Positions 48,184 through 64,000 of a stretch of 64,000 nt of DNA are shown here, piece after piece. The translations under genes were made by a program, and so were the position numbers. Every line of letters starts with the position of its first letter. The first letter of the stretch is position 1. The notes under the pieces were generated by a model. That model was not told the DNA's origin. It worked only from the letters and a program-made list of their open reading frames with translations, and ran no database searches. The stretch comes from Metabacillus endolithicus (GTDB lineage: Bacteria; Bacillota; Bacilli; Bacillales; Bacillaceae), in NCBI RefSeq assembly GCF_023078335.1, contig NZ_CP095550.1, forward strand, positions 434,001-498,000, written 5' to 3'.

Positions 48184-48301
48184 GCTATTCACTCCTAAAA
48201 TAGTATTAACACCATACAATATGTAAAACGCCCATATAGTTTCCTATCTTTTGTCATTTTTACAAAAAATTATTTTTGCAATTGTAAAATAGTCACACAT
48301 A

Positions 48302-48333
48302 AAAACAGAGTAGATTTCTCCACTCTGTTTTTA
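48302..48333 (-). terminator. Terminator of the Arg/Asp-rich small gene
   Basis: AAAACAGAGT pairs with ACTCTGTTTT across a 10-base loop, with T-runs outward, 18 bases beyond the stop codon. Confidence 0.8.
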
Positions 48334-48350
48334 TATTCCAATTCATTTTT

Positions 48351-48569
48351 CTACCAAGGAAAGCCTCTTCTTCTTCTTCTGCGATCTTCAGCACCTAGTA
48401 CATCATCATCTCGGTCATATCTTCTATCTCTTCTATCTTCTACACCTGCAACATCATTATCAAAACGACGATGACGTCTTTTATCATCTGCTTCAACGAT
48501 AATCACTTCATCTGCATTAATGATTACACGATCTGCATTAATCACTAGCCTTTTTCTATTTTCTGACAT
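48351..48569 (-). CDS. Small Arg/Asp-rich protein
   Basis: A 72-residue protein. The first 30 residues are two near-repeats (RVIINADEVIIVEAD), a beta-hairpin-like, Val/Ile-rich pattern; the rest is a low-complexity series of Asp-Arg-Arg and GxEDRR repeats ending in RRRRRRGFPW. Such composition suggests a spore- or coat-associated or nucleic-acid-binding protein, but nothing in the sequence proves it. ATG with GGAGGTGG upstream; terminator after it. Confidence 0.65.
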   Translation of the reverse strand: MSENRKRLVINADRVIINADEVIIVEADDKRRHRRFDNDVAGVEDRRDRRYDRDDDVLGAEDRRRRRRGFPW

Positions 48570-48740
48570 TTATCCCACCTCCATTCTCTTTTACTACATT
48601 TTATGAAACGAACATAAAAACGAGTGGACGAGTATATTGGGACTACTCACCAATTTTTTAGTCTCCAAAAAAGGTTACATAATCAATTCTAGGTCAGGAA
48701 AAAATAAACAGATACGGTGGGAATGTGGGGTGAAAAGATA

Positions 48741-48857
48741 ATGAAAAAGTTACTGGCAATTTTACTAGCAGCACTTCTTGCTACTTCTGTTGTGGCATGT
48801 GATGATGCTCCTGGTGAAGATGAAATCGGTGATGGTGAAATCAACGATGAGGAATAA
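48741..48857 (+). CDS. 38-residue lipoprotein
   Basis: A tiny exported lipoprotein: signal peptide KKLLAILLAALLATSVVAC with lipobox VVAC (Cys-20), then an 18-residue acidic tail DDAPGEDEIGDGEINDEE. The ribosome site GGGGTGA lies at the right spacing and a strong hairpin follows within seven bases of the stop. Small acidic lipoproteins of this kind occur in Bacillus; role unknown. Confidence 0.65.
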   Translation: MKKLLAILLAALLATSVVACDDAPGEDEIGDGEINDEE

Positions 48858-48863
48858 GAAAAA

Positions 48864-48886
48864 GACACACGGTTTATCCGTGTGTC
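48864..48886. terminator. Terminator shared by the lipoprotein and MFS genes
   Basis: GACACACGG pairs perfectly with CCGTGTGTC with a 5-base loop. It follows both stops of the convergent genes; the minus-strand side is followed by five T. It overlaps the end of the MFS gene. Confidence 0.85.
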
Positions 48887-50244
48887 GTATTTGTTCTTGC
48901 TTTGATATAAAAATGAAACAACATAATAGCAAGTGTAACGAGAAAGGCCAATCCACCAAAAATATTACGATAAATGAGGTCTACAGCCAAGCCATCTTGA
49001 AGAGTAATCAAGATCCCCGTTAATGTTACACCAAAGGCTCCTCCGAAAAATTGAATTAGCTGAGTCATTCCCATCCCTGTCCCAATCTCTTCAGTTGGGA
49101 GAATCCTTGAAACTTCATTAGCTACACTTGATGTAAGGGCTGAGAAACCGGTGCTCATAAACATATAAGTTAGTAAGATAAAATATGGTGACTTCGTTGA
49201 CAACAATGTAAATAAAACCGTTGCAATAAATAAGAAAAGTTGCCCAAAAAGAATAAGGGGGCCATTGCCAAACCGATCAATTAACCTCCCAATAAACTGT
49301 GCAGCCACTGCAGACAAAATAGCTCCAGGGAAAATCATCATCCCTACTTCCGCAGGGTCTTTTCCAAAAACATCTGTTAAGATAATCGGCATAAGAAAAA
49401 GGGTAGAAAAATGGGTGACAAACGCGACAAATCCGATAAAAAGCAATTTAAGATATTGCTTCTCTTTTAGCAATTTTGGCTGGATAAACGGCATCTTTAC
49501 TTTGTTGATATGCCTCCACATCAGCCAAAGGATAATCATGCTTGAAAATAAGATGATATAAGAAAAGGTTGAGAGAAATAACAACAAACCTGTTACACCT
49601 GCTGCTGTTAAACATCCACCTAACGTATCAAACTTCACCTTCTTAATCTCTTCTTTTGGCAACAGTCTTTGTAAAAGTGGAATAAATAAAACAACTAAAC
49701 CCGTCACGGCAAACAAGTAATTCCATCCTAAATATTGAGTAATAGCTCCCCCAATAACAGGTCCCAGTCCAAATCCAAGTGAAGAGGCTGATGCAATGAG
49801 GGCCATGGCTTTTCCTCTTCTACTTATTGGAATATATCTTCCTGCTAGCACCATCGCAAGACCTGGTACAGCTCCTGCTCCCGCTGCTTGAAGAACCCTT
49901 GTTGTTAATAGAAGTGGAAATGAGTTGGCAAAAAAGCCGATAACTGAAGCAACTCCTAATATGGATAGTCCGATAAGAAGCAGTCTTGAGATTGGGATAT
50001 AATCAGAAAGACGACTAAATGTTAAAGTAGCAATGGCAAAAACAATAGAATATCCCGATACAATCCAAGATGCTGTTGAAGAGGTGAGAGATAAATCTGT
50101 TAACACACTTGGTAAAGCCACATTAAACATCGTTGTATTCATGACAACAAGCCAAACAATAAAGCTCCAAATGAAAACAATTTTGTTTTCCTGTATGGAT
50201 TCTGCCCCTGTACTTTTAGGAGCAGCAATGGAAACCGAAGACAT
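48874..50244 (-). CDS. MFS transporter (DHA2, Tet(L)-like)
   Basis: A 456-residue drug:H+ antiporter-type permease, about 14 helices. It has the motif-A-like FSRLSDYIPISRLLLIGL near 75-93 and motif-C-like GFGLGPVIGGAI near 150-161. Size and layout are close to Tet(K)/Tet(L)-type proteins. The first 25 residues are polar. Substrate unknown; resistance cannot be claimed from sequence. Convergent with the tiny lipoprotein gene. Cotranscription with the esterase gene is unlikely because a terminator lies between. Confidence 0.88.
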   Translation of the reverse strand: MSSVSIAAPKSTGAESIQENKIVFIWSFIVWLVVMNTTMFNVALPSVLTDLSLTSSTASWIVSGYSIVFAIATLTFSRLSDYIPISRLLLIGLSILGVASVIGFFANSFPLLLTTRVLQAAGAGAVPGLAMVLAGRYIPISRRGKAMALIASASSLGFGLGPVIGGAITQYLGWNYLFAVTGLVVLFIPLLQRLLPKEEIKKVKFDTLGGCLTAAGVTGLLLFLSTFSYIILFSSMIILWLMWRHINKVKMPFIQPKLLKEKQYLKLLFIGFVAFVTHFSTLFLMPIILTDVFGKDPAEVGMMIFPGAILSAVAAQFIGRLIDRFGNGPLILFGQLFLFIATVLFTLLSTKSPYFILLTYMFMSTGFSALTSSVANEVSRILPTEEIGTGMGMTQLIQFFGGAFGVTLTGILITLQDGLAVDLIYRNIFGGLAFLVTLAIMLFHFYIKARTNTTHG

Positions 50245-50374
50245 TTGATACCACCTGTTTCTTTCAAGTTATTAAACAATAATACTATCATAATACGTTT
50301 TTTCTTCCTATAAAAGAAAAATGCTTCGAGTATCGAAAAATGAACTTTGTGAAACATTGTCCCAATAAGCAAAA

Positions 50375-50403
50375 AAGGATGAACATGGTATAGGTTCACC
50401 CTT
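50375..50403 (-). terminator. Terminator of the catabolic operon
   Basis: AAGG-a-TGAAC pairs with GTTCA-c-CCTT, one mismatch, then five or more T on the minus strand (AAAAAA on the plus). Lies 15 bases beyond the esterase stop. Confidence 0.65.
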
Positions 50404-50418
50404 ACAAAATAGTAAACA

Positions 50419-51366
50419 TTATGTTACCTGTTGTTTTTGATATTGATTTTCAAGGTAGTCAGCTGCTTCATAAATGGCTTTTCTTCCGTCCTCCAATGGC
50501 AGCGTCATACACATAAAACCATGAATCATTCCTGGATAACAAACATACGTTGTTTGAACTCCTGCTTGTGAAAGCTTCTTGGAATATGCTTCTCCTCCAT
50601 CACATAAAGGATCATACTCTGCCGTAACAATATATGCCGGTGGAAGCTTAGCAGCATCCTCTTCTGGGATGAGCATAGGCGCTGCTAAAGGACTTTGTGT
50701 ATCAGATATGCTCGAAAGATATTGTTGCCTAAACCAGGTCATCGTAGATTTTGTTAGGTAATATCCTTCTCCATATTTTTCATAAGATTCTGTTGGTTCA
50801 AAACCTGTTGATGGGTAAAATAATAGCTGATGACTAATATTAAAATCTTTCCTTTGAACTGCTAAATAACAAGTAACTGCAGCCAAATTTCCACCAGCAC
50901 TATCACCACCTACTGCAATGAACGTTTGATCAATACCTAGATCGTTGGCATGATCATACACCCATTTCGTTGCAAGATACGCATCTTCCACAGGAACTGG
51001 AAATTTATGTTCAGGAGCCAAGCCGTAGTCTACAGATATTACTTTACATTGAGCATGGTTAGCAAGTATTCGGCATAATGAATCATGTGTTTCAATATTA
51101 CCAATTACCCAGCCACCTCCGTGAAAATAGACTAAGGCTGGTAGTGAACTTTTTTCGTTAGGACTGTATATTCTAATCGATATTTCATGTTCATATCCTT
51201 GAATTCTTCTATCTTCTACATGATGAATTTCTTCTGTAATGTTTAAAGAAGAACTAGACTCAACATATAGAGCCCTTGCTTCTTGCAGATTTTGCTGCTC
51301 AACTGCAGGTACATTTCGTTTTTCAAAATGTTGTAATAGTGCAATAACTTGTGGATGTAATGTCAT
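50419..51366 (-). CDS. Alpha/beta hydrolase, hormone-sensitive-lipase family esterase
   Basis: A 315-residue carboxylesterase. Oxyanion motif HGGGWVIGN near 80-88, nucleophile GDSAGGN near 151-157, acid region AEYDPLCDGGE near 247-257, and catalytic His in PGMIHGFMCM near 277-286. The first ATG overlaps the stop of the MaoC gene (ATGA), so it is translationally coupled. Last gene of the sigma-54-type catabolic operon. It may free an acid from an ester or lactone before CoA activation. Confidence 0.9.
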   Translation of the reverse strand: MTLHPQVIALLQHFEKRNVPAVEQQNLQEARALYVESSSSLNITEEIHHVEDRRIQGYEHEISIRIYSPNEKSSLPALVYFHGGGWVIGNIETHDSLCRILANHAQCKVISVDYGLAPEHKFPVPVEDAYLATKWVYDHANDLGIDQTFIAVGGDSAGGNLAAVTCYLAVQRKDFNISHQLLFYPSTGFEPTESYEKYGEGYYLTKSTMTWFRQQYLSSISDTQSPLAAPMLIPEEDAAKLPPAYIVTAEYDPLCDGGEAYSKKLSQAGVQTTYVCYPGMIHGFMCMTLPLEDGRKAIYEAADYLENQYQKQQVT

Positions 51367-51785
51367 GATGATCCCTCGTTATCTTTATATTTTGCAAACG
51401 TAACAATTCCTTTAATAACATCCACTCCATTTTGATTAACTGCGTTTACTTTGAATGTAGAATATTGTACATTCTCTTCTGTTAATCTTGCTTTTAATGT
51501 AATGATGTCACCAAGAAACACCATGCCCCTAAACCGAATCTGATAATCCTGAATAAAACCCTCTTCATGATAAGGGGTAAATAACTTTGCCAAATTCCCC
51601 ATCGTCCACATTCCGTGAGCGATGATCGCTGGTAAAGCCGCTTTTTTAGCTTCATCATCAACTGTGTGAATTGGGTTGTAATCTCCTGAAGCACCCGCAT
51701 ACTTTATAAGGTCTAATCTTGACACAGGTGGTAATGTAACAATGGGCAGCTCTTCGCCTACATGACACCTTAGTAACCTGCTCAT
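51363..51785 (-). CDS. MaoC-like (R)-enoyl-CoA hydratase, C-terminal-type
   Basis: A 140-residue hot-dog hydratase. The catalytic Asp/His motif is seen in YAGASGDYNPIHTVDDEA near 30-47, and the following AIIAHGMWTMGNLAKLF. Works on trans-2-enoyl-CoA, giving the (R)-3-hydroxyacyl-CoA, or pairs with the N-type partner directly upstream (ATGA overlap). Two MaoC halves of this kind form heterodimers in actinobacterial steroid and fatty-acid pathways; that assembly is inferred. Confidence 0.85.
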   Translation of the reverse strand: MSRLLRCHVGEELPIVTLPPVSRLDLIKYAGASGDYNPIHTVDDEAKKAALPAIIAHGMWTMGNLAKLFTPYHEEGFIQDYQIRFRGMVFLGDIITLKARLTEENVQYSTFKVNAVNQNGVDVIKGIVTFAKYKDNEGSS

Positions 51786-52231
51786 ATACTCATCACCTTC
51801 CTTACAGTTTCATTAATAATGACAACCTGCTCAGCAGTGAAAATAAGCTCTTCGCTAAGAGTTTCACCATACTGTTTTAACACCAAAAACCCCATATTCC
51901 CAAGCTTTCCTTGCTTTTCATAGTATTCTTCCACTTCTTGATAGCAGATGATCTCTTCACCAACAAGCAACGGACGTTTGTAATGATATTTTTGTTCACC
52001 ATGAATTAACCCCTTAGCTGGTAAATCAAGCTCATCTATCACACCATAATCAAAAACCCTTGGAAATGTAGGTGGAGCAATATTCTTCTTATATCTTGTT
52101 GTTTTAGCAAACTCTTCATCTACAAAAATAGGGTGAAGATCACCAATCGATTCGGCGAACTTTTTTACTGCACCTCTTTCAACAACATTCTTTACACCTG
52201 AAGATCGTTTTCCAATAGCTTCTTTAAACAT
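51782..52231 (-). CDS. MaoC N-terminal-type dehydratase (FAS1-like hydratase)
   Basis: A 149-residue hot-dog protein of the MaoC_dehydrat_N type, which lacks the catalytic HxxxD/N motif seen in the partner downstream; FAESIGDLHPIFVDEEFAKTT near 28-48 and FPRVFDYGVIDEL are characteristic. ATG at 52231 with AAAGGAGGC; the longer frame upstream overlaps the SDR gene and is not used. Acts most likely as the partner subunit of the MaoC hydratase at 51363-51785. Confidence 0.85.
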   Translation of the reverse strand: MFKEAIGKRSSGVKNVVERGAVKKFAESIGDLHPIFVDEEFAKTTRYKKNIAPPTFPRVFDYGVIDELDLPAKGLIHGEQKYHYKRPLLVGEEIICYQEVEEYYEKQGKLGNMGFLVLKQYGETLSEELIFTAEQVVIINETVRKVMSI

Positions 52232-52286
52232 ATTGATGCCTCCTTTTTTCACAAGATTTCCTGCTTTATTAAACACCAACATAAAT

Positions 52287-53051
52287 TTAATTTTTCGGAC
52301 CACCTGCAACATAAATAATCTGACCGTTAATAAAGGATGATTTTTCATCAGCAAAAAAAGCGACTGCGTTTGCGATATCACTTGGTTTCCCACTGCGACC
52401 AACAGGAATTTTTGAGACACTCGCCTGAATTAAATCTTCAAAAGAAATGCCAAGACGTCTTGCTGTTTCTTTTGTCATATCTGTTTCAATAAAACCTGGT
52501 GCTACTGAATTAGCTGTAATCCCATATTTTCCTAACTCAATCGCTAAGGTTTTTGTAAAGCCTTGTAATCCTGATTTAGCTGTTGCATAATTTGCTTGCC
52601 CTCTATTACCTAAAGCAGATGTTGAAGAAATATTGATGATTCTTCCATATCGGTTTTCAACCATATATTTTTGTGCAGCTCGAGCCGCATTAAACGAGCC
52701 TTTTAAATGAACATCCATAACGAGCTGCCAATCATCGTCCGTCATTTTAAAAAGCAGATTATCACGAATCACACCAGCATTGTTTACAAGGATATCAAGT
52801 GATCCAAAATTGTTATACGTTTCCTCCATTGCGTCTGCCATTTGATCAGCTTCTACCACACTAGCAACCTTCGAAAACACGTTATATCCTTTTTCACGTA
52901 ATTCTTTTGTCGTTTCGTGGACAGCCTCTTCATTCACATCAATAAAAGCTACTTTCGCTCCCTCACTTGCAAAAAGTTCAACAATTCCTTTCCCAATCCC
53001 ACGACTTCCACCCGTTACAAAAGCTACTTTTCCATCAAATCTTCCTGACAT
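52287..53051 (-). CDS. Short-chain dehydrogenase/reductase (FabG-like, 3-hydroxyacyl-CoA)
   Basis: A 254-residue SDR. NAD(P) motif VTGGSRGIGKGI near 10-21, NNAG near 87, and the Ser-Tyr-Lys triad in NISSTSALGNRGQANYATAKSG. The negative residue AFIDVNEEAV at the end of strand 2 suggests NAD(H). In this operon it most likely oxidises 3-hydroxyacyl-CoA before thiolysis. Start ATG 53051 after AAAGGAGG; an ATG two codons upstream overlaps that site. Confidence 0.9.
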   Translation of the reverse strand: MSGRFDGKVAFVTGGSRGIGKGIVELFASEGAKVAFIDVNEEAVHETTKELREKGYNVFSKVASVVEADQMADAMEETYNNFGSLDILVNNAGVIRDNLLFKMTDDDWQLVMDVHLKGSFNAARAAQKYMVENRYGRIINISSTSALGNRGQANYATAKSGLQGFTKTLAIELGKYGITANSVAPGFIETDMTKETARRLGISFEDLIQASVSKIPVGRSGKPSDIANAVAFFADEKSSFINGQIIYVAGGPKN

Positions 53052-53102
53052 AAACATCCTCCTTTTTAGTTCGTCTGTATTTCAATCTTATCATGTTACC
53101 TT

Positions 53103-54278
53103 TTATATAAATTGTCCTACCTTTACATGACCTTTTAATAGATTACGAGAAATGATTACCCGTTGAATTTCATCTGTTCCATCGTAAATTCTCCACAATC
53201 TTGCTTCACGATACCAACGTTCAATAGGGAGTTCTCTTGTGTATCCCATTCCTCCATGAATTTGCAGTACCCGATCTACTACCCGATTCCCCATGTTTGC
53301 TCCATAAAGCTTTGCCATCGATGCTAAATGACGGTTATCCTCACCATGATCAAGTGTGAAAGCAGCGTTTAAGACGAGCCATTTCGCTGCATCAATTTCT
53401 ACAGCAGAGTCAGCAATTTGCCATTGAATTGCTTGTCGTTCAGAAATCGGTTTTCCAAATGTTTCACGCTCTTTCGAATAATCAATTGCCATTTGTAGGA
53501 GTCTTTCTGCGGCACCTACTGCTCTGGCTCCTACAATCCATCTTGCAAAACCAATCCATTCAAGGCCTAGGTTATATCCGCCACCCACTTCTCCAAGAAT
53601 ATTTTCTTCTGGAACTCGGACATTTTCAAAAACAAGACCGGCTGGTCCCCACTCACCCATCGTGTGAATGTATTCTGATTTCCAGCCCATATCGCGGTCA
53701 ACGATAAAGCATGTTACACCATCACGACCTGTGGCCTGATGCTTTTCTTTATCTGTGATCGCAATAACCATTACAAAATCAGCTTCATTGCCACCAGTAA
53801 TGAATGTTTTTTCCCCATTTAATATCCATTCATTTCCGTCCTTAACAGCTGTCATTTTAATATTTCTTGTATCAGAACCAGCTCCAGGCTCTGTCATCGC
53901 GAAACATGATTTTTTATCACCATTAATTGTTGGCAACAAATACTTCTTTTTTTGCTCTTCATTAGCATAATAAAGAATATTGTCTGCCGAACCACCAAAT
54001 TGGAACGGGACAAATGTTTTCGAAACCTCCATCATGACAATTGCTAACATCATTTGACCTAAATCTGCTCCACCGTATTCTTCTGGAGTATTAATTCCCC
54101 AGAAACCAGCTTCTTTTGCTTTTAGTTGTAGTTCCTTTAATTTTCCCGGAGGCAAACTTGGTTTCCCTTCACGTTCGTTTCGTAATACTTCATTTTCGAG
54201 AGGCATTAATTCTTTTTCTACAAATTTTCTAATTGTTTTTTGAACCATTTTTTGTTCTTCTGTTAATCGTAAATGCAT
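53103..54278 (-). CDS. Acyl-CoA dehydrogenase with Asp at the usual catalytic-base position
   Basis: A 391-residue FAD acyl-CoA dehydrogenase. FAMTEPGAGSDTRNIKM near 127-143, ITGGNEADFVMV and C-terminal LQIHGGMGYTRELPIERWYR are all normal. The segment that normally reads YEGT is YDGTDEIQRV: Asp replaces the catalytic Glu. Other family members take the base from a different helix (as isovaleryl-CoA dehydrogenase does), so activity is still possible. ATG at 54278 follows GAGGTGA; the GTG three codons earlier overlaps that site. One of two dehydrogenases in this operon. Confidence 0.9.
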   Translation of the reverse strand: MHLRLTEEQKMVQKTIRKFVEKELMPLENEVLRNEREGKPSLPPGKLKELQLKAKEAGFWGINTPEEYGGADLGQMMLAIVMMEVSKTFVPFQFGGSADNILYYANEEQKKKYLLPTINGDKKSCFAMTEPGAGSDTRNIKMTAVKDGNEWILNGEKTFITGGNEADFVMVIAITDKEKHQATGRDGVTCFIVDRDMGWKSEYIHTMGEWGPAGLVFENVRVPEENILGEVGGGYNLGLEWIGFARWIVGARAVGAAERLLQMAIDYSKERETFGKPISERQAIQWQIADSAVEIDAAKWLVLNAAFTLDHGEDNRHLASMAKLYGANMGNRVVDRVLQIHGGMGYTRELPIERWYREARLWRIYDGTDEIQRVIISRNLLKGHVKVGQFI

Positions 54279-54305
54279 CTCTTTCACCTCATTAACAAAT
54301 ATTTT

Positions 54306-55489
54306 TTATAGTAATTGAAGCATAACGGCCATCCCTTGGCCCCCACCTACACATAAAGTTGCCATTCCATATTGCTCTTGTCTTCTTTTCATCTCATATA
54401 AAAGCGTAATCATGATTTTACATCCAGTCGCCCCAAGCGGGTGACCAAGGGCAATTGCTCCACCATTTACATTTACTTTGTGTGAATCTAGTCCAGTCTC
54501 TCGGATAACCGCTAATGCTTGTGCAGCAAATGCTTCATTTAATTCAATTAGGCCGACTTCGGAAAGGGTCAGATTGGTTCGTGCAAGTAGCTTTTCTATT
54601 GCCGGTACAGGACCAATTCCCATCTCTTTGGGAGAAACACCAGCAGTGGCCCAATCTACTATTCTAGCTAATGGTTTTAAACCTAATTCTTTTGCCTTGC
54701 TTCCTTTCATAATAACCATCGCGGCAGCACCGTCATTTCTACCACAGGAGTTACCGGCAGTAACTGAGCCACCTGCTTTGAAAACTGCTTTTAACTTAGC
54801 CAAACCTTCTAAACTAGTAGCAGGTCGTGGATGTTCATCCTCTGTCACTTGAAAAACTTTTTTCTTTCTTGTATCACCACAGGTATTATTTCTTCTTTAA
54901 AACTTCCTCTTTCAATTGCTTTTGCCGCTTTTTGTTGACTGTTATAAGCAAATTCATCTTGAACTTCACGTGAAACACTGTATCTTTCTGCGACATTTTC
55001 AGCTGTTATGCCCATTCCTAGATCTTTTCCATATAATTCAATTGGCTGCTGACCGTTTTCAAGATTAGAATCTACTAAAGTAGGAGCACCTTCTCCAAAT
55101 CTGGAATTTCTTAAATAAATTGGTGCTCGACTTAAGCTTTCCGTTCCACCAGCAACTACGATTTCTGCCTGCCCAAACGAAATTTGTTGAACAGCTGAGG
55201 TTACAGCTTGCATACCTGAAGCGCAAAGTCTATTAACCGTAAAAGCAGGTGTTTTCTCAGGAATTCCTGCTCTTAATGCCGCTACTCTAGCAACATTTGA
55301 GGATTCTGTTGTTTGCCTAACTTCTCCTAGAATTACTTCATCAATTAATTCTGAAGAAAGATTGATCCTCCTTATTGCTTCCTCGATTACAATTGCACCT
55401 AAATATCCTGAGTTTAAATTTTTTAATGATCCACCGAATCGACCAACTGGTGTACGGACAGCGCTTACAATTACAATATCATCAATCAT
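54306..55489 (-). pseudogene. Acetyl-CoA acyltransferase (thiolase), frameshifted as sequenced
   Basis: A biosynthetic/degradative-type thiolase that cuts 3-ketoacyl-CoA. N-part has the acyl-enzyme Cys in NRLCASGMQAV near 88; C-part has [14 protein letters not shown] and CVGGGQG. The frame breaks in a run of six A after VIQERK (54858-54863 on the plus strand, six T); one added A gives a joined 394-residue protein, full normal length. All active-site residues present. The two pieces overlap by 4 bases as sequenced. I treat it as one functional gene with a sequencing error. Confidence 0.92.
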
Positions 55490-55522
55490 TCTTTGCCTCC
55501 TTTCTTATCTTATTGCAGGAAT

Positions 55523-56671
55523 CTAGCAATATTCTTTTCTTAATTGTCCAGCAATAATATTTTTCTGAATCTCGGATGTTCCTTCATAGATTCTTGTAAT
55601 TCTTGCATCTCGATAATATCTTTCAACTGGATAATCTGTTATATAACCTAGACCACCGTGAATTTGGACAGCTTTATCTGCAACGCGATGATAAACTTCA
55701 GAGCCGTAAAGTTTTAGCATGGCCGCTTCTTTAATCACCTTTTCATTTTGATCTACCATCCATGCAACTCTGTACGTAAATGATCTAAGTGCTTCAATCT
55801 CCATTGCCATCTCAGCTAACATATGGGCAACTGCTTGGTGCTCAATGATTGGTACAGAAAATTGCTCTCTCTCCTGAGCATGTATCATGCACATATCCAA
55901 AAGCTTCTGTGAAGATCCTAAGTTTCTAGCTGCTAGACCCGCTCTGCCATTTGCTAGAATTTTAAGGGCATTAACATAGCCTTGACCAACTTCGCCTAAC
56001 ACGTTTTCTTCGGGAACCTCACAATCTTCAAAAATCAGTTCTGCTGATTGTGAGCCATGAAGTCCCATTTTTCGTTCAATTGCTCCAATCTTAAAGCCTG
56101 GAGAATTTCTTTCAACAAGAAAAGACGTTATCCCCTTTGCACCTTTTTCCGGATCAGTTACAGCCATAACCGTAAAAACATCAGCTACAGTTGCATTTGT
56201 TATATAATGTTTCGTCCCATTCAAAATATATTTATTTTCCTTCTTAATTGCTGTTGTTCTCAAGTTTGTAGCATGTGAACCAGCTTGAGGTTCTGTTAAA
56301 GCAAAAGCTCCGATTTTGTCTCCTCTTGCCATATCAGGTAAAAATCTTTTCTTTTGTTGGTCATTGCCCATTTCAACAATGCCTACAGTTCCGATACCTG
56401 TATGGTTCTCGATTAATGTTGTATAGCCATTATGTGTTTTTCCGATTTCTTCATAAAGTGCACATTTTCCAACCATCCCGATCCCAAGTCCACCGTATTG
56501 CTCTGGAATACTAAGGCTAAACAATCCGATTTCCTTTGACTTTTCGATGATTTCTTTAGGAATTTCGTCATCATCTTCAATTTGCATTGCATGTGGCTCT
56601 ACTTCATTTTTAATAAAATCTCTTATATTATTTCTTAAATAAAGAATATCTTCATCAAACTGAAAATTCAT
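55523..56671 (-). CDS. Acyl-CoA dehydrogenase
   Basis: A 382-residue FAD acyl-CoA dehydrogenase of the short/medium-chain type. [17 protein letters not shown] near 126-142, [14 protein letters not shown] and [20 protein letters not shown]. The catalytic Glu is present in [11 protein letters not shown]. Substrate chain not determinable. Tight in the operon: 27 bases after the upstream thiolase. ATG with GAAAGGAG. Confidence 0.93.
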
Positions 56672-56698
56672 TTCTTCACTCCTTTCATCCTGAAGATT

Positions 56699-57862
56699 TT
56701 ATTTTCTTTCTAATGACAAGGCAATTCCTTGGCCTCCGCCAATGCATGCAGTTACTAAGCCTTTTTTTACATCACGGCGTTTCATCTCATAAACAAGCTT
56801 TGTAATTAACATGCCTCCTGTTGCGGCAATTGGATGTCCATGTGCAATCGCGCCACCATTTACGTTTACTTTATCCATGTTAAAGGAGAGTTCACGGTCA
56901 CATGCTAACACCTGTGCAGCAAAGGCTTCATTAATTTCAATTAAATCATACTCATCTAAATCTTCTTCTCTTTGAGATAAAAGCTTTTGAACAGCTGGGA
57001 CCGGGCCAATACCCATGATGTTCGGATCCACTCCTGCGATTGACCAACCTGTGATCCAGGCTAAAGGTTGTAATCCTCTTTTCTTCGCTTCATCTTCAGA
57101 CATCACTACAAGCGCTGAAGCACCATCATTCACACCAGAAGAGTTACCAGCTGTAACACTCCCTCCTTGCCTAAAGGCCGGTGAAAGCTTTGCGAGCTGT
57201 TCCATTGTTACATTTGGTCTTGGGTGTTCATCTGTTGTAAAAAGAATCTCACCTTTTCTTGTTCTAATTGGAACTGAAACAATTTGCTCATTGAAATAAT
57301 TATTTTCCATCGCTGCTGCCATGCGTTGTTGACTTCGTAGTGAAAATTCATCTTGCTCTTCTCTTGTAATGCTGTATTTTCCCACTAAATTTTCAGCTGT
57401 AATACCCATTGGCGGGTCACCGATATGGTCAGGTGAAAGGTTTCGAGAAACAAATTTGGGTGGCATGCGATCAAATGGTTTATCTTGTGGTGCTAATAAA
57501 TACGGTGTTCGTGACATGCTCTCGGTTCCGCCTGAAATGATAATTTTTGCTTGACCTGCTATGATTGCTTCTGCAGCTAAGGCAACACTATTAATACCTG
57601 AGCCACATTGTCTATCAATTGTTAATCCAGGTACCGAAAAAGGTAGTCCTGCTTCTAGTAACGTAAGTCGGGCGATATTGCCTCCACCGGATAAACAGTT
57701 CCCTAAAATGACATCATCAACTTCTGCCCCCTCTATATTGATCCGTTTTAATGCTTCTTTTATCGTAATCGCCCCATAAATGTAAGGATCTAATGCTGAA
57801 AGGGCCCCACCTTTTTTGGCAATTGGTGTTCGGACAGCAGAAACAATTACTGCTTGTGTCAT
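56699..57862 (-). CDS. Acetyl-CoA acyltransferase (thiolase)
   Basis: A 387-residue thiolase. Cys of DRQCGSGINSVA near 87, GGAIAHGHPIAATGG near 345 and CIGGGQG near 378: all three catalytic regions present. First gene of the operon that follows the sigma-54-type promoter. ATG at 57862 was chosen, with AGGGGAG in reach; the earlier in-frame ATG (57886) lies on top of the predicted transcript start. The second thiolase of the operon (54306-55489) may act on a different chain length. Confidence 0.92.
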   Translation of the reverse strand: MTQAVIVSAVRTPIAKKGGALSALDPYIYGAITIKEALKRINIEGAEVDDVILGNCLSGGGNIARLTLLEAGLPFSVPGLTIDRQCGSGINSVALAAEAIIAGQAKIIISGGTESMSRTPYLLAPQDKPFDRMPPKFVSRNLSPDHIGDPPMGITAENLVGKYSITREEQDEFSLRSQQRMAAAMENNYFNEQIVSVPIRTRKGEILFTTDEHPRPNVTMEQLAKLSPAFRQGGSVTAGNSSGVNDGASALVVMSEDEAKKRGLQPLAWITGWSIAGVDPNIMGIGPVPAVQKLLSQREEDLDEYDLIEINEAFAAQVLACDRELSFNMDKVNVNGGAIAHGHPIAATGGMLITKLVYEMKRRDVKKGLVTACIGGGQGIALSLERK

Positions 57863-57898
57863 ACTAACATCTCCCCTATGTTTCATTTATCCTTATGT

Positions 57899-57915
57899 AG
57901 CAAGTTTCATGCCAA
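57899..57915 (-). promoter_or_regulatory. Sigma-54 (SigL) promoter
   Basis: On the minus strand TTGGCATGAAACTTGCT. It matches the consensus TTGGCAC-G-N4-TTGCT except for one base (C to T), and the GG and GC elements are exactly 10 bases apart, as sigma-54 requires. The likely start of transcription is near 57888, about 26 bases before the thiolase ATG. No sigma-A promoter of similar quality is visible. Sigma-54 needs an enhancer-binding activator, none of which is in the window. Confidence 0.75.
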
Positions 57916-58120
57916 TAATCTTATGACTATCTATAAGAACTAGAGAAATAAGCAATTCAGTTTTGAATTATTTTTCAGTGATGTTAATTCATTTTTGCAA
58001 GCTATCTTTCATTATTGCATTAAAAATTCTCTTGCTTGCTCTGAAAATGAACTTCTGTCAACAAGCCTTAACTCCGACTCTTTTGTTACAATGATGCTCC
58101 TATTCTTTTTTGTGAAACAT

Positions 58121-58145
58121 GTCTCGATTAGACTGGTATCGAGAC
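58121..58145. promoter_or_regulatory. Inverted repeat, candidate enhancer site
   Basis: GTCTCGAT-N9-ATCGAGAC, perfect 8-base arms, about 230 bases upstream of the sigma-54 promoter. Distance and symmetry fit an enhancer-binding-protein site. The rest of the 57863-58181 gap has no gene. Confidence 0.5.
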
Positions 58146-58181
58146 TGCAACTGACTCTTCTCCTGGTTCCTAAGAAAAATC

Positions 58182-58202
58182 GGGTGGTGCCAGGCACCAC
58201 CC
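58182..58202 (-). terminator. Terminator after the ABC substrate-binding gene
   Basis: A perfect palindrome of two 10-base arms GGGTGGTGCC / GGCACCACCC around one A, then ATTTTTCTT on the minus strand. It lies 12 bases beyond the stop of the substrate-binding gene. The GGTGCCNGGCACC core is also a common dispersed element in Bacillus, here in a terminator setting. Confidence 0.75.
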
Positions 58203-58213
58203 TCTAACACCTT

Positions 58214-59431
58214 TTACTGAACTGATTTATCAACGATTTTCCCATCTTCTACAACACCCATTCGAAGCTCTGTTGTTAAGCCGCCGTTTTCTTCAATTTC
58301 AGTAATTTCATAGATTCGTTTGTCAGCAGGGAGGTTGTTTAATCCCTCTTCTACTTTTGCCATAATTGCATCTGGATCATCAACAGATCCTGCTGCTTTC
58401 ATTGCCTCTACAAACAGGTACATAGCCATGTAATGATATCCAGCCTCTGATCCCGGATTTTTACCTTGTGCTGCTGCATAGTCTTCTATGAATTTTGCAT
58501 TGCCATCATTTTTTGAGTGAATAAGTGGTAAAACCCCTACAGATCCTTCTACTAAGTCTGGACCACCCAACACAGCTTCAATTTCATCCAGTTTTGCTTG
58601 GTCCATTATGAGGAATCCTCCTTTAAAACCAAGTTCTCTAGCTTGTTTAATAACAAGGGCAGTCGGCTCTGATGGACCCCCAACGAATAAAACATCTGGC
58701 TTTTCTTTTAATGCATTCGTAACGATTGTGAAAAAGTCTGTATCTTTACTAAAGTCAATGGATCCTTTATACACCACTTCTCCACCTAAGTCCTTCCAAC
58801 CTGGTTCAAGTAATGCAGCCCAGTCTTTTCCATATTGACTAGCAGTTGGAAGCATGGCAATCTTTTTACCGAATCGTTCCATTTGATATTTAGAAAACGG
58901 CTCAATATATGAGCTATACTTTGGAGGAATACGTAATGTTAGCGGATTTCCTTGTTCTGTTATCTTCGGTTCACTTGAATAAGCTCCAATTATAAATTTT
59001 TCCTGAAGATTAAAAACTTGTGTAGCAAAAATACCACCACTATGTGGAACAAAAATGATTGGTGTTTTGTCTTCTTGAACTAACCGTTTTGCATTTGCCC
59101 CTGTTTCATTCGGTAAGTATTTGTCATCTAAAGAAACTAGGTTTAAAGAATAGTTTTTACCGTCCACTTCAAATCCACCATTGTTGTTAATTTCATCTAC
59201 AGCCATAGATAAGCCACTTAATGTGTTCTCACCATAATAGGCAGCAGGACCACTTAAAGGGCCACTATACCCAATATTAACAACTTCACCTGCGGGTTTC
59301 TCTTCTGTATTTGATGTTGTTTCTTCTGTGTTCCCTTCACTTTGGTTTGCTGGTTCTGTTGATGTGTTCCCACTACATGCTGCAAGCATAAAAATTAGTA
59401 CAAAAGCAAAGAAATAAACAAGCTTTTTCAT
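58214..59431 (-). CDS. Branched-chain-type ABC transporter, substrate-binding lipoprotein
   Basis: A 405-residue extracellular solute-binding protein of the LivJ/K (type I periplasmic-binding fold) family. Signal peptide and lipobox LAAC near residue 19, then a Ser/Thr/Glu-rich spacer of about 35 residues. The binding fold starts with VVNIGYSGPLSGPAAYYGEN. Family members bind amino acids, amides or aromatic acids; with a CoA ligase and beta-oxidation genes next to it a carboxylic acid is the better guess. Followed by a strong terminator. Confidence 0.9.
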   Translation of the reverse strand: MKKLVYFFAFVLIFMLAACSGNTSTEPANQSEGNTEETTSNTEEKPAGEVVNIGYSGPLSGPAAYYGENTLSGLSMAVDEINNNGGFEVDGKNYSLNLVSLDDKYLPNETGANAKRLVQEDKTPIIFVPHSGGIFATQVFNLQEKFIIGAYSSEPKITEQGNPLTLRIPPKYSSYIEPFSKYQMERFGKKIAMLPTASQYGKDWAALLEPGWKDLGGEVVYKGSIDFSKDTDFFTIVTNALKEKPDVLFVGGPSEPTALVIKQARELGFKGGFLIMDQAKLDEIEAVLGGPDLVEGSVGVLPLIHSKNDGNAKFIEDYAAAQGKNPGSEAGYHYMAMYLFVEAMKAAGSVDDPDAIMAKVEEGLNNLPADKRIYEITEIEENGGLTTELRMGVVEDGKIVDKSVQ

Positions 59432-59513: not shown

Positions 59514-60221
59514 CTAAGCACCTATATACGCTTTCCTCACTTCGTCATTTTCAAATAAGTCCTTGCTGCTACCTTCTAGTACAATTTTCCCTGTTTCAAT
59601 TACATAGCCTCGATCGGCAATTTTTAGTGCAGCATTTGCATTTTGTTCAGCTAAAAGAACTGTTGTTCCATTTTTGTTTATTTGTTGGATAACACTAAAC
59701 ACTTGTTCTACAATTAAAGGAGCGAGACCAATAGATGGCTCATCAAGTAAAATAACCTTAGGAGATGCCATAAGGGCTCTCCCAATGGCGAGCATTTGTT
59801 GCTGTCCACCACTCAGCGATCCAGCTGGGTCATCTTTTTTGTCGTTTAAAATAGGAAAAAGCTCAAAAACTTCATGAAGTGATTTTTTTCGTTTTCCTTT
59901 ATCTCTTCGATGAACAAAGCCACCTAAAATGAGATTTTCATAAACAGTCATTTGCGGAAATAGCTTTCTCCCTTCTGCACATTGAACAATTCCAAGTGAC
60001 ACAAGACGATCTGCTGATAGTCCACTTATACTTTGGTCGTTAAATTCAATGCTGCCTGAAGAAGGTTTACTTAAACCACTAATCGTTCGAAAGATTGTGC
60101 TTTTCCCAGCACCATTTGCACCTAATAAAACAACAAATTCTCCTTGTTTCACACTAAGATTGATATGTTCTAATGCCTGATATCCACCATAAGAAACAGA
60201 AACATCAGTAAGCTTGAGCAA
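59514..60221 (-). CDS. livF: Liv-type ABC transporter ATPase, LivF
   Basis: About 235 residues. Walker A GANGAGKST near 36-44, signature LSGGQQQMLAIGRALM near 134-149 and Walker B VILLDEPSIGLAP. TTG at 60221 is the start: GGAGGTG lies six bases before; it overlaps livG by 17 bases, so translation is coupled. Partner of LivG in driving the importer. Confidence 0.92.
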   Translation of the reverse strand: MLKLTDVSVSYGGYQALEHINLSVKQGEFVVLLGANGAGKSTIFRTISGLSKPSSGSIEFNDQSISGLSADRLVSLGIVQCAEGRKLFPQMTVYENLILGGFVHRRDKGKRKKSLHEVFELFPILNDKKDDPAGSLSGGQQQMLAIGRALMASPKVILLDEPSIGLAPLIVEQVFSVIQQINKNGTTVLLAEQNANAALKIADRGYVIETGKIVLEGSSKDLFENDEVRKAYIGA

Positions 60222-60978
60222 CAGCTTCACCTCCTAAGTAAGCTTCAATTACAGCTGGATTTTTTTTGATCTCTTCTGGCGTTCCTTCAGCAATTTTTTG
60301 TCCATAATTTAAAACCATAATCTTATCTGCTAGATTCATAATCATTTGCATTTTGTGTTCAATGAGACAAACTGTTATTCCTTTTGAAACCATCTTCTTA
60401 ATCAACTCTGCTAAACCGTCTGTTTCTTCAGGATTTACACCTGCAGCTGGTTCGTCTAAAAACACAATTGTTGGGTCTGTTGCTAGAGCTAATGCAAAAG
60501 CTGTACGTTTCATTTCTTCTTGCGAAATCTCTGACACATGCTTATCTGCAAGGTTTGTTAACCCAACAAACTCTAATACTTCATGTGCTTTTTCTAATGA
60601 TTCCTTTTCTTCTCTTTTCAAACGAGATGTTCGAAAAATTGCATCAAATAACCCTGATGAGGTTCGTAATCTATGTCCAATTAGTACATTATCCAATACC
60701 GTTGATTGCTCGAATAAATGTGTGGTTTGAAATGTTCTAGCAATACCAAGCTTTGCAATTTGATGTGCCTTTAATGATGTGATATCTGTGCTATCAAACA
60801 TTACCGAGCCTGACGAGGGTTGATGAAAGCCACTAATTAAGTTAAAAAATGTAGATTTCCCTGCACCATTAGGACCAATAATTGCCGTTACCTTTCCTTT
60901 TTCAATCTCAAAGTCTACGGAATTAACGGCAGTCGCCCCACCAAATGTTTTCGTCAGTCCCTTTACTTGAACAAGCAT
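60205..60978 (-). CDS. livG: Liv-type ABC transporter ATPase, LivG
   Basis: A 257-residue ATPase with Walker A GPNGAGKST near 35-43 and Walker B IVFLDEPAAGVNPEE near 174-188. The signature is SEISQEEMKRTAFALALATDP instead of LSxGQ, a variant I recall in other Bacillaceae LivG proteins, so probably functional. ATG with GGAGGAG. Overlaps livM by one base. Confidence 0.92.
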   Translation of the reverse strand: MLVQVKGLTKTFGGATAVNSVDFEIEKGKVTAIIGPNGAGKSTFFNLISGFHQPSSGSVMFDSTDITSLKAHQIAKLGIARTFQTTHLFEQSTVLDNVLIGHRLRTSSGLFDAIFRTSRLKREEKESLEKAHEVLEFVGLTNLADKHVSEISQEEMKRTAFALALATDPTIVFLDEPAAGVNPEETDGLAELIKKMVSKGITVCLIEHKMQMIMNLADKIMVLNYGQKIAEGTPEEIKKNPAVIEAYLGGEAVAQAY

Positions 60979-61982
60979 TATTTCTCCTCCTTTACAACAA
61001 CAGATTGCAGATTTCGAGAAAGATCTTTCTGTGACTTTTTAGCTCTCTGCTTGATTAGCCATGTTTGCACTCCCCCGACAATCCCCCTTGGATAGAAAAT
61101 AATCAAGAGAACAAGAATCGGACCAAAAATGAGCATTCGATAGTCTTGTAAAAATTGTAGATATTGAGAAATCCAGACAACAAGAAGAGTTCCAACAAGC
61201 GGTCCGGAGAGTGTGCCAATACCACCAACTAATAAATACATCAACATATCAAAAGTAACGTTAATATACGAAATATCAGGTCCAATAAATCGAACAAATG
61301 ACGCATACAAGCCGCCTGCTAACCCCGCAAAGAATGTGGACAAAACAAATGAAACTAGTTTTTGTTTCATTGTCTCGATCCCAATCGTTTGAGCTAGCTC
61401 TTCACTATTTCTTATTGCCATATATGTTCTGCCGATAAGAGAGTTAATAATTCTCGTGAAAATAAAAATAGTCAAAACGAGAAAGAATAATAATAGATAG
61501 TATTGGGACTTAGGTGTTTGAAACGTTATCGGTCCAATTGGTGCAGGTGGCGGGATCCCAATTAAACCACGGACTCCTTCTGTGAGTGCTTCCCATTTGT
61601 AAATAATCAGATAAATAATGTACCCAACGCAAAGTGTATAAATGGCAAAGAAATGTTCTTTCGTTCGAAGGGCGATTATACCTATTAACAATCCAATAAT
61701 GGTTGTAATGATAATTCCAAGCAGTAGAGCCAACCAAAAATTAAGGCCCACTTTTACTGTTAAGATTCCAACCGAATAGGCACCGATGGCGAAAAAGCCT
61801 GCATGTGCTAATGAAAGCTGACCAGTAAATCCGCCAATCAAATTTAATCCATAAACTCCAATCGTCCATATAAAAGCAGTAGAAAAAATGTGTAATAAAT
61901 ATGGGTTATCTGTTAACAAGGGCACCAAAATAGCTACTACAACTAACAAGATGACGGTATTTCTTTTATTTAAGAAACTCAT
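60978..61982 (-). CDS. livM: Liv-type ABC transporter permease, LivM
   Basis: About 334 residues, ~8-10 TM helices. The family stretch LNLIGGFTGQLSLAHAGFFAIGAY lies near 47-70 in pieces, and GGIGTLSGPLVGTLLV with the EAA-like cytosolic loop near 252-267. Ends with a basic tail (IKQRAKKSQKDL). Overlaps livH at the ATG/TGA. The two permeases form the channel. Confidence 0.92.
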   Translation of the reverse strand: MSFLNKRNTVILLVVVAILVPLLTDNPYLLHIFSTAFIWTIGVYGLNLIGGFTGQLSLAHAGFFAIGAYSVGILTVKVGLNFWLALLLGIIITTIIGLLIGIIALRTKEHFFAIYTLCVGYIIYLIIYKWEALTEGVRGLIGIPPPAPIGPITFQTPKSQYYLLLFFLVLTIFIFTRIINSLIGRTYMAIRNSEELAQTIGIETMKQKLVSFVLSTFFAGLAGGLYASFVRFIGPDISYINVTFDMLMYLLVGGIGTLSGPLVGTLLVVWISQYLQFLQDYRMLIFGPILVLLIIFYPRGIVGGVQTWLIKQRAKKSQKDLSRNLQSVVVKEEK

Positions 61983-62848
61983 CAAGAACGAGCCCCCTTT
62001 ACAAACAAGCCTTTCGGTTTAATAGTCAGAATTGCCACTAATAATAGAAAAGCAATTAAATCTTTATAATCATTTGAAATAAATGTCGCACTTAAGCTTT
62101 CAGAAAATCCTAAGATATAACCACCAATAATTGCTCCGGGGATACTTCCCATACCACCAATAATGATGATGACAAAAGCTTTTAAAATAACAAGATGACC
62201 CATACCAGGAAAAACTAGATTAATAGGTGATGCTATTGAAGAAGCGAATGCTGCCAAAGCACCAGAAATAAAAAACGTAATCACGGCCACTTTGTTTGCA
62301 TTAATTCCTACTAAAAATGCGCCCTCTCGGTTTTGCGACATTGCAATTATCGCTGAACCTGTTATCGTTTTTTTCAAAAATAAATGTAAAAGTATCATCG
62401 CAAGAATAGCTGTACCGATTATAAGAAGTCTTTGTGCAGTAACAGTTAGCCCTAGAAAATCTACAACAATATCATAAGGAGATAACATTCTGCGATATTC
62501 AGCACCCCATACTAACTGAACTAAAGCTTCCAAAAATAAGAGAACTCCAATTGCTGCGATTTTGTCATGTATTGGCGGTGCATTCCGCAATGGATGGAAA
62601 ACTAGCCGTTCCATAACAACGCCTAATAATCCAACGACAATAATGGAAATTAATATTGCCAGCCAATAGTGTAGTCCCATGCTTTCCATAAATAAAAGTG
62701 TGATATAACCACCAACCATATATAAAGCTCCATGCGCAAAATTTGGAATATGCAAAATTCCATATACCAATGTCAAACCAAGTGCAACCAGACTGTAAAC
62801 GCTTCCAATTGTAAGTGCATTGAATAATTGCTGAAATAAAATATCCAT
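61982..62848 (-). CDS. livH: Liv-type ABC transporter permease, LivH
   Basis: A 288-residue permease with ~8 TM helices: SVYSLVALGLTLVYGILHIPNFAHGALYMVGGY (in pieces near 17-48), VMERLVFHPLRN near 80, and IIGGMGSIPGAIIGGYILG near 232. Matches the LivH family in length. ATG with AGGAGGGA. First of the four ABC cytoplasmic-side genes, 12 bases after the CoA ligase. Confidence 0.92.
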   Translation of the reverse strand: MDILFQQLFNALTIGSVYSLVALGLTLVYGILHIPNFAHGALYMVGGYITLLFMESMGLHYWLAILISIIVVGLLGVVMERLVFHPLRNAPPIHDKIAAIGVLLFLEALVQLVWGAEYRRMLSPYDIVVDFLGLTVTAQRLLIIGTAILAMILLHLFLKKTITGSAIIAMSQNREGAFLVGINANKVAVITFFISGALAAFASSIASPINLVFPGMGHLVILKAFVIIIIGGMGSIPGAIIGGYILGFSESLSATFISNDYKDLIAFLLLVAILTIKPKGLFVKGARS

Positions 62849-62860
62849 GTGTTCCCTCCT

Positions 62861-64000
62861 CTATTTGGATACAGAATACATTTCTTTTAGTGTCCGTTTC
62901 AGAATCTTTCCAACCGCTGTTTTTGGAAGTTCCTCTACAAAAGCTATTTCTTTAGGCACTTTATAGGCTGAAAGTCTTTCTCGACAAAATTGAATTAATT
63001 CATCTTCTGTTATACGTTCATTTTCTTTGGTAACAACAATTGCTTTAACTGTTTCACCGCGGTATTCATCTGGAACACCGATAACAGCTGCTTCAAGAAC
63101 TTTTGAATGACTGTAAATAACATCCTCCACTTCAATTGGATATACATTAAATCCACTTGCTAATATCATTTCTTTTTTACGTCCAACAATATAGAAAAAT
63201 CCATCAGCATCCATCATCGCCAAATCTCCAGTATATAACCAGCCATCACGTATTGTATTAGCTGTTTCTTCAGGCATATTCCAATACCCTTTCATAATTT
63301 GAGGTCCTTTTATAATTAACTCGCCAACTTCTCCAATTGGCAAATCTTCCTCGCCGGTAGCTATATCAACAACCTTAGCATCTGTATTAGGTATTGGTAT
63401 TCCGATACTTCCACGCTTTTGAAGTCCCGAAATAGGATTGCGGTGTGTGACAGGAGATGCCTCAGATAATCCATACCCCTCAGCAACATTCGTTCCGCTG
63501 ACTTCATTAAAACGGTTTATCACTTCAACAGGAAGTGGTGCAGAACCACTTGTACAGGTTTTAAGACAACTTAAGTCAAACTTATAGGTTTTATAATAAT
63601 TAAGTAGTGCAATATACATTGTTGGAACACCTGGAAATGAAGTTGGTTTTGTTTTTTCTATCATTTTCACGACCTCTTCCACTTCAAATCGAGGGACGAG
63701 AATTAAGTTTCCACCATTATAAAAAGTAAGATTCATCGCACTTGTCATCCCATAGACGTGAAACAAAGGAGAAATGGTTAGAACTCTCTCTTCTCCTGTA
63801 TTTGTTTTTATATGTGCAGTAGCAGCACTTTGGAGTGTATTTGCAACTAAATTATAATGTGTTAACATTGCCCCTTTTGAACGACCTGTTGTTCCTCCTG
63901 TATATTGAAGAACAGCAATATCTTCTTTAGGATCAACCTTGTCATTAGGGATTGTATCACCAGGATCTTTTAGTAATTGATGAAACAAGCTTTCTTTTTC
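62861..64000 (-). CDS. AMP-dependent acyl-CoA ligase, partial (N-terminus outside window)
   Basis: The C-terminal ~380 residues of an acyl-CoA synthetase/ligase (FadD-like, usually ~515-560). The AMP-binding P-loop LQYTGGTTGRSKGAMLTH, GYGLSEASPV, DGWLYTGDLA and GRKKEMILASGFNVYP are all present, and the catalytic lysine near the C-terminus lies in KTAVGKILKR. It activates a carboxylic acid with ATP and CoA. Frame is open to the window edge. Directly before the Liv genes, so import and activation go together. Confidence 0.93.
   Translation of the reverse strand, partial: EKESLFHQLLKDPGDTIPNDKVDPKEDIAVLQYTGGTTGRSKGAMLTHYNLVANTLQSAATAHIKTNTGEERVLTISPLFHVYGMTSAMNLTFYNGGNLILVPRFEVEEVVKMIEKTKPTSFPGVPTMYIALLNYYKTYKFDLSCLKTCTSGSAPLPVEVINRFNEVSGTNVAEGYGLSEASPVTHRNPISGLQKRGSIGIPIPNTDAKVVDIATGEEDLPIGEVGELIIKGPQIMKGYWNMPEETANTIRDGWLYTGDLAMMDADGFFYIVGRKKEMILASGFNVYPIEVEDVIYSHSKVLEAAVIGVPDEYRGETVKAIVVTKENERITEDELIQFCRERLSAYKVPKEIAFVEELPKTAVGKILKRTLKEMYSVSK

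Follow-up and report, generated by a model that had tools for sequence, protein, structure and literature searches.

Activation of sigma-54 promoters follows a standard mechanism, in which an activator bound at a UAS loops to the polymerase and drives opening of the sigma-54 complex with ATP. The described systems that come closest to the locus presented here are GabR/gabT of Bacillus thuringiensis, in which the GabR PAS domain represses until the inducer GABA is added (PMC4279683, available passages), and the predicted clostridial activator CrbR of butyrate synthesis (PMC6615313, available passages). A regulon survey, in the passages available, places acyl-CoA dehydrogenases, thiolases and acyl-CoA synthetases of Bacilli and Clostridia under predicted sigma-54 control, and reports beta-oxidation enzymes as enriched among the predicted targets in both classes (PMC12316311). 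On these passages, beta-oxidation genes of Bacilli have already been predicted in print to be under sigma-54 control, and the remark in a first-pass annotation of the present DNA that a beta-oxidation-like sigma-54 operon would be unusual looks overstated beside them.

The locus straddles the end of a window of 64 000 nucleotides (the whole stretch of DNA that was analysed) from Metabacillus endolithicus. It consists, in order, of an activator gene, a promoter, an acyl-CoA ligase gene with genes for an LIV-type transporter and its binding protein, a terminator-like stem, a second promoter and a thiolase operon. On the sequence evidence set out below, the SigL promoters of the thiolase operon and of the ligase/LIV operon are very probably both switched on by the adjacently encoded PAS–AAA+–HTH activator via a UAS of the form ATTCA-N4-TGAAT. 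Coordinates are in window numbering unless a genome or locus prefix is given or a whole-genome site is meant.

The -24/-12 element above the thiolase operon, TTGGCATGAAACTTGCT (57915–57899, minus strand), differs from the sigma-54 consensus TGGCACGNNNNTTGCW at one position and has the 10-base gap between GG and GC that had been reported for it. A consensus match on its own is weak evidence for a sigma-54 promoter: the window contains 28 sites with up to two mismatches to TGGCACNNNNNTTGCW versus 25.8 expected, and the whole genome contains 33 sites with up to one mismatch versus 16 with the reversed pattern. The element is credible because of its position and its conservation. It is intergenic, outside every frame of at least 120 codons, with a ribosome-binding site and a start codon just downstream (the thiolase 1 ATG at 57862 is preceded by AGGGGAG). 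Among relatives, where conservation of the GG/GC elements had been suggested as a check, a -24/-12 element is preserved ahead of the thiolase as well as the ligase in all five loci that retain the gene order from activator through esterase (L161, L162, L200, L201 and L202). The inferred transcription start lies near 57888, giving a leader of ~26 nt to the ATG, in agreement with the earlier estimate. This supports the proposal that a large acyl-CoA degradation operon is read from a sigma-54 promoter.

Of the 33 genome sites, 32 were classified, and 11 of these lie in no frame of at least 120 codons; site 3897362 was added to the 11 by eye, as a 153-codon frame spans it, yet a ribosome-binding site and a start codon follow 29 bases downstream. 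An activator domain is present within 2 kb of nine of these 12 non-coding-type sites versus none of the other 20. The window promoter is one of the 12, with its activator domain 7.2 kb distant, and site 389634, among the other 20, may be a promoter too, given the ribosome-binding site and start codon after it. The sigma-54 gene itself was recognized by a PF04552 match in a 437-aa frame at 1850659; further PF04552 matches are found in a 284-aa frame at 3895286 and in a third, marginal case.

The thiolase operon is encoded on the minus strand and starts with thiolase 1 (56699–57862, by family models; the mechanical open reading frame starts at 57886 and the ATG is at 57862). There follow acyl-CoA dehydrogenase 1 (55523–56671), whose closest solved structures are mostly of short-chain or butyryl-CoA types, thiolase 2 (54306–55489, by family models and relatives) and acyl-CoA dehydrogenase 2 (53103–54287, by family models). 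Family models also place a short-chain dehydrogenase/reductase (SDR; 52287–53057), a candidate 3-hydroxyacyl-CoA dehydrogenase, a FAS1-type dehydratase-domain protein (51782–52420), a candidate MaoC-like hydratase subunit whose true start is probably inside this open reading frame, a MaoC-like hydratase subunit (51363–51785) and a LipP1-family esterase of the hormone-sensitive-lipase type (50419–51366). The probable last gene encodes an MFS transporter (48874–50244, by family model and stem), so that the operon probably takes in this gene and ends at a terminator-like stem at 48886–48864. The eight-gene block described in the first-pass annotation agrees with these families and their spacing, with the amendments that the MFS gene is probably included and that thiolase 2 is broken into two overlapping frames in this assembly, versus a single whole frame in all five relatives examined. 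The break marks either a pseudogene or an assembly error. A second RpoN-like gene and its neighbouring activator gene also both look frame-broken (L232:8439–11253; G000:C1 about 3894.4–3897.3 kb), and these breaks together with that in thiolase 2 hint at indel errors in the assembly.

Genes for a ligase, a dehydrogenase, a hydratase, a hydroxyacyl dehydrogenase and a thiolase, as assigned by family models, thus occur together and make up a beta-oxidation gene set. We infer that a short, branched or cyclic acid would suit the short-chain-type dehydrogenases, the LIV-type import and the esterase. The identity of acyl-CoA dehydrogenase 2 to its counterparts is mostly 84–94% in matched relatives (71% in L169 and 76% in L229) and may reflect either strong constraint or transfer; with the two nearest species set aside, identity is 49–70% for the activator and 54–80% for the binding protein.

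The partner operon, also on the minus strand, starts with the acyl-CoA ligase gene (62861–64000, continuing to 64450 in window numbering), continues with the two ATPases and two permeases of the LIV-type ABC transporter (59514–62848) and ends with the LIV-type substrate-binding protein (58214–59431). A terminator-like stem with a T run (58182–58202, minus strand) separates it from the thiolase operon. A second -24/-12 site, TTGGCATAAGTATTGCT, lies between the activator gene and the ligase gene, and the two operons therefore probably form one regulon. The activator gene (G000:C1:498668–500338) is found ~670 bases past the window end in the same direction as the operons, where a PAS/AAA+ enhancer-binding gene had been proposed as a thing to look for. 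Its product contains PAS (PF00989), Sigma54_activat (PF00158), lid and HTH_50 (PF18024) domains. The activator loop reads GAFSGA, as in 13 of 49 orthologues, the other 36 having GAFTGA; the GAFSGA variant is said to permit activation in the available passages of two papers (PMC4641369, PMC6615313). A profile search of the genome gave 13 strong Sigma54_activat matches and four weak ones, so that the earlier statement that SigL operons are few was overstated for this organism. A molybdopterin oxidoreductase gene directly precedes the activator gene (L018:12463–14823, beyond the window), and its frame contains a -24/-12-like match that is likely to be fortuitous.

Orthologues of the activator were detected at E ≤ 1e-150 in 10 of 80 genomes of the family and 45 of 397 of the order, and at E ≤ 1e-140 in 25 of 398 of the class; within the genus, three of 21 genomes (G000, the present one, with G002 and G015) have one at E ≤ 1e-150. 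We laid out 51 loci, of which 49 are distinct: 40 of the 45 order matches, five from searches of relatives and the family, and four named records. The activator loci carry ligase, dehydrogenase, thiolase, SDR or LIV genes in variable order, apart from L216 (4.4 kb downstream without a match, then the contig end) and L230 (contig end); these gene families are large, and their presence alone is weak evidence. Transport genes differ by locus, with LIV-ABC genes in many and TRAP-type genes in L203. The recognition region of the HTH domain, roughly [TS]SQ[AP]T[IV]VRKL[KQ]KY, is common to the loci, including those without an exact copy of the UAS.

The likely enhancer at these promoters is ATTCA-N4-TGAAT, a predicted UAS. 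Above the thiolase operon, one exact copy, ATTCAAAACTGAAT (57955–57968, minus strand), is located 53 bp upstream of the T that begins TTGGCA. A possible degenerate second copy with two mismatches, TTGCAAAAATGAAT (57987–58000, minus strand), is weak; it sits 85 bp upstream of the -24 element, and a further two-mismatch stretch spans 58007–58020. At the ligase promoter, one copy is exact and two have one mismatch. Across the 49 loci, sigma-54 sites with up to one mismatch number 55 on the strand of the activator versus two on the opposite strand, and the 300 bp above those 55 sites contain 76 exact UAS copies. With the gap set to any of the nine other lengths between 0 and 9, at most four copies are found; the 29 other permutations of the arms yield at most one each, and random placement a mean of 1.6 copies (maximum 10). 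An exact UAS within 280 bp of a sigma-54 site (up to two mismatches) is present in 42 of the 49 loci, at 50 promoters. When the six loci used for motif discovery, all positive, are removed, 36 of 43 held-out loci have an exact UAS, as do 21 of 25 held-out clusters of activators grouped at 75% identity. What the comparison of loci shows is thus the promoter, the activator gene, the motif, its spacing and their linkage.

Spacing follows a pattern as well. The 50 promoters have three copies (exact or with one mismatch) in 28 cases, two in 17 and one in five. The copy nearest the promoter lies at 53–56 bp in 15, at 64–67 bp in 18 and at 74 bp in two, and in the remaining 15 it falls outside these phased bands, at 39 or 86–213 bp. 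Neighbouring copies (n = 73) are separated by 18–20 (29), 42–46 (18), 53–58 (16) or other (10) distances. Spacing in steps of one turn would be the pattern expected of sites on one helix face.

Seven of the 49 loci have no exact UAS near a sigma-54 site, though their HTH looks alike. At class level, two of 20 loci have an exact UAS, nine have only a one-mismatch copy and nine have neither; the four exact copies are all at gap 4, with zero at the nine other gaps. Over the whole genome the 14-mer shows no enrichment (12 places versus 11 for the reversed control), its single match in the window is within chance (0.42 expected), and it carries information only where a sigma-54 site is adjacent.

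The enhancer had previously been sought in a palindrome, GTCTCGAT-N9-ATCGAGAC (58121–58145), which does exist, with perfect 8 bp arms, at a plausible distance of 206–230 bp above the -24 element. The enhancer role is rejected, and we give it next to no chance, because the palindrome is a lone copy of a genome-wide repeat core (GTCYCGAT-N9-ATCGRGAC) and because G002 and G015, the two closest relatives, retain the promoter but have no copy of the palindrome here; its conservation had been suggested as a check. At up to two mismatches, GTCTCGAT-N9-ATCGAGAC has 434 copies in this genome (reversed control 1), 279 in G002 (2) and 457 in G015 (5), and none in any of the three other operon-bearing relatives (G128, G165 and G305). 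Exact copies of GTCNCGAT-N9-ATCGNGAC number 336 here, 219 in G002 and 355 in G015 (controls 0, 1 and 1), with none in 18 other genus members. In 15 stretches inspected around listed copies, of which the 12 from this genome hold 157 of its 336, neighbouring cores are mostly 52 bp or a multiple apart (49–52 in L255); the stretches were picked from visible clusters, so that solitary copies are under-sampled. The linker is similar inside an array and different between arrays (four arrays; L244–L258 stretches). A 2021 survey of Bacillus tandem repeats describes, in the passages available, a 52-nt class, and its table includes a 'litoralis' 52-nt consensus containing GTCTCGAT and ATCGGGAC (PMC8161180). 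The arrays here resemble that class in their 52-nt period and in these core arms; the window copy is by contrast solitary, with zero tandem repeats found. It has the terminator-like stem on one side and, on the other, what is left of a thioesterase gene (58017–58089, approximate limits, minus strand), recognized by comparison with relatives. The thioesterase frame is whole in L162, L200, L201 and L202 (4HBT by Pfam in L162, L200 and L202, the three scanned), and the gene is also lost in L161 and in G002. Of the genus members, only three sister species have a palindromic core common to arrays with array-specific linkers, a feature that may merit closer look, though the 52-nt class is known. A tempting palindrome beside a promoter can thus be repeat-family DNA, and the case suggests the enigmatic 52-nt repeats as a source of false regulatory sites.

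Control of the sigma-54 promoter by another activator of the genome, rather than the adjacent one, is improbable. The genome offers candidates in its 13 strong activator-domain matches, and the promoter at 3897362, which by sequence reading precedes an aminotransferase-like gene, bears ATTCA-N4-TGAAT at -115 and ATTTA-N4-TGAAT at -55; because of this similar site above a different promoter, the motif may not belong to the adjacent activator alone. It nevertheless accompanies orthologues of that activator at the 42 positive loci, and the promoters beside two other activators (4866929 and 319975) carry copies of like build with different letters, TTCTAA-N4-TTAGAA and GATACA-N4-TGTATC, respectively. 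The promoters beside four more activators (880692, 2490999, 3887138 and 4173869) have no callable site of that build. It is less probable still that the operon owes most of its transcription to a housekeeping promoter (FadR control and read-through from the LIV operon being examples), with the -24/-12 match incidental. FadR does control the fatty-acid degradation operons of B. subtilis; against this, no FadR-like operator was found at up to three mismatches to the consensus in 19 kb, the gap before the thiolase operon contains the strong terminator-like stem, and the -24/-12 element is conserved in the five syntenic relatives. A search for sigma-70-type promoters between 57850 and 58260 gave no match versus 1.2 expected, in line with the earlier statement that no other promoter is visible; over 48300–58260 on both strands the count is at chance level (30 versus 27.6 expected) and hence uninformative.

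The adjacent activator is the probable common regulator. A sigma-54 (SigL) promoter would drive the thiolase operon and its twin the neighbouring acyl-CoA ligase/LIV-transporter operon, and both would be turned on by the PAS–AAA+–HTH activator whose gene lies shortly before that of the ligase. Its target would be the 14 bp palindrome ATTCA-N4-TGAAT, of which a promoter has one to three, as a rule on the same helix face, some 50–145 bp above the -24 element; once bound, the activator would loop to the sigma-54 polymerase. Sensing of a carboxylic acid or its CoA ester by the PAS domain would lead to ATP hydrolysis and promoter opening. The imported acid would then be activated by the ligase and degraded by dehydrogenase, MaoC-type hydratase, SDR and thiolase. 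We infer this working, including binding, activation and the kind of inducer, from what is established about such activators and from the case of GabR, in which the PAS domain represses until GABA is added.

Beyond this locus, it is rather likely that the activator and ATTCA-N4-TGAAT act as the constant part of a regulon for acid degradation across many Bacillales, with enzyme and transporter genes reshuffled between genera and the control module conserved for longer than gene order. For an uncharacterized activator, the analysis predicts a binding site and two target operons, along with a regulon that can be tested across many Bacillales. The pairing of activator and site was not found in the literature searched (titles and abstract openings). 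In the regulon survey (PMC12316311), the available passages do not name an activator for the beta-oxidation genes, and the term 'UAS' is absent from the main text. CrbR (PMC6615313, in the passages available) is likewise predicted to be a sigma-54 activator, and several UAS precede an operon that carries genes for thiolase, MaoC and acyl-CoA dehydrogenase; CrbR differs in serving butyrate synthesis and in having UAS of the TGT-N10-12-ACA kind, and the likeness is one of description, orthology aside. GabR (PMC4279683, in the passages available) differs in its target, the GABA shunt, and in its site, a 21 bp repeat, and shares with the present locus a PAS–AAA+–HTH activator and repeats close above a catabolic -24/-12 promoter.
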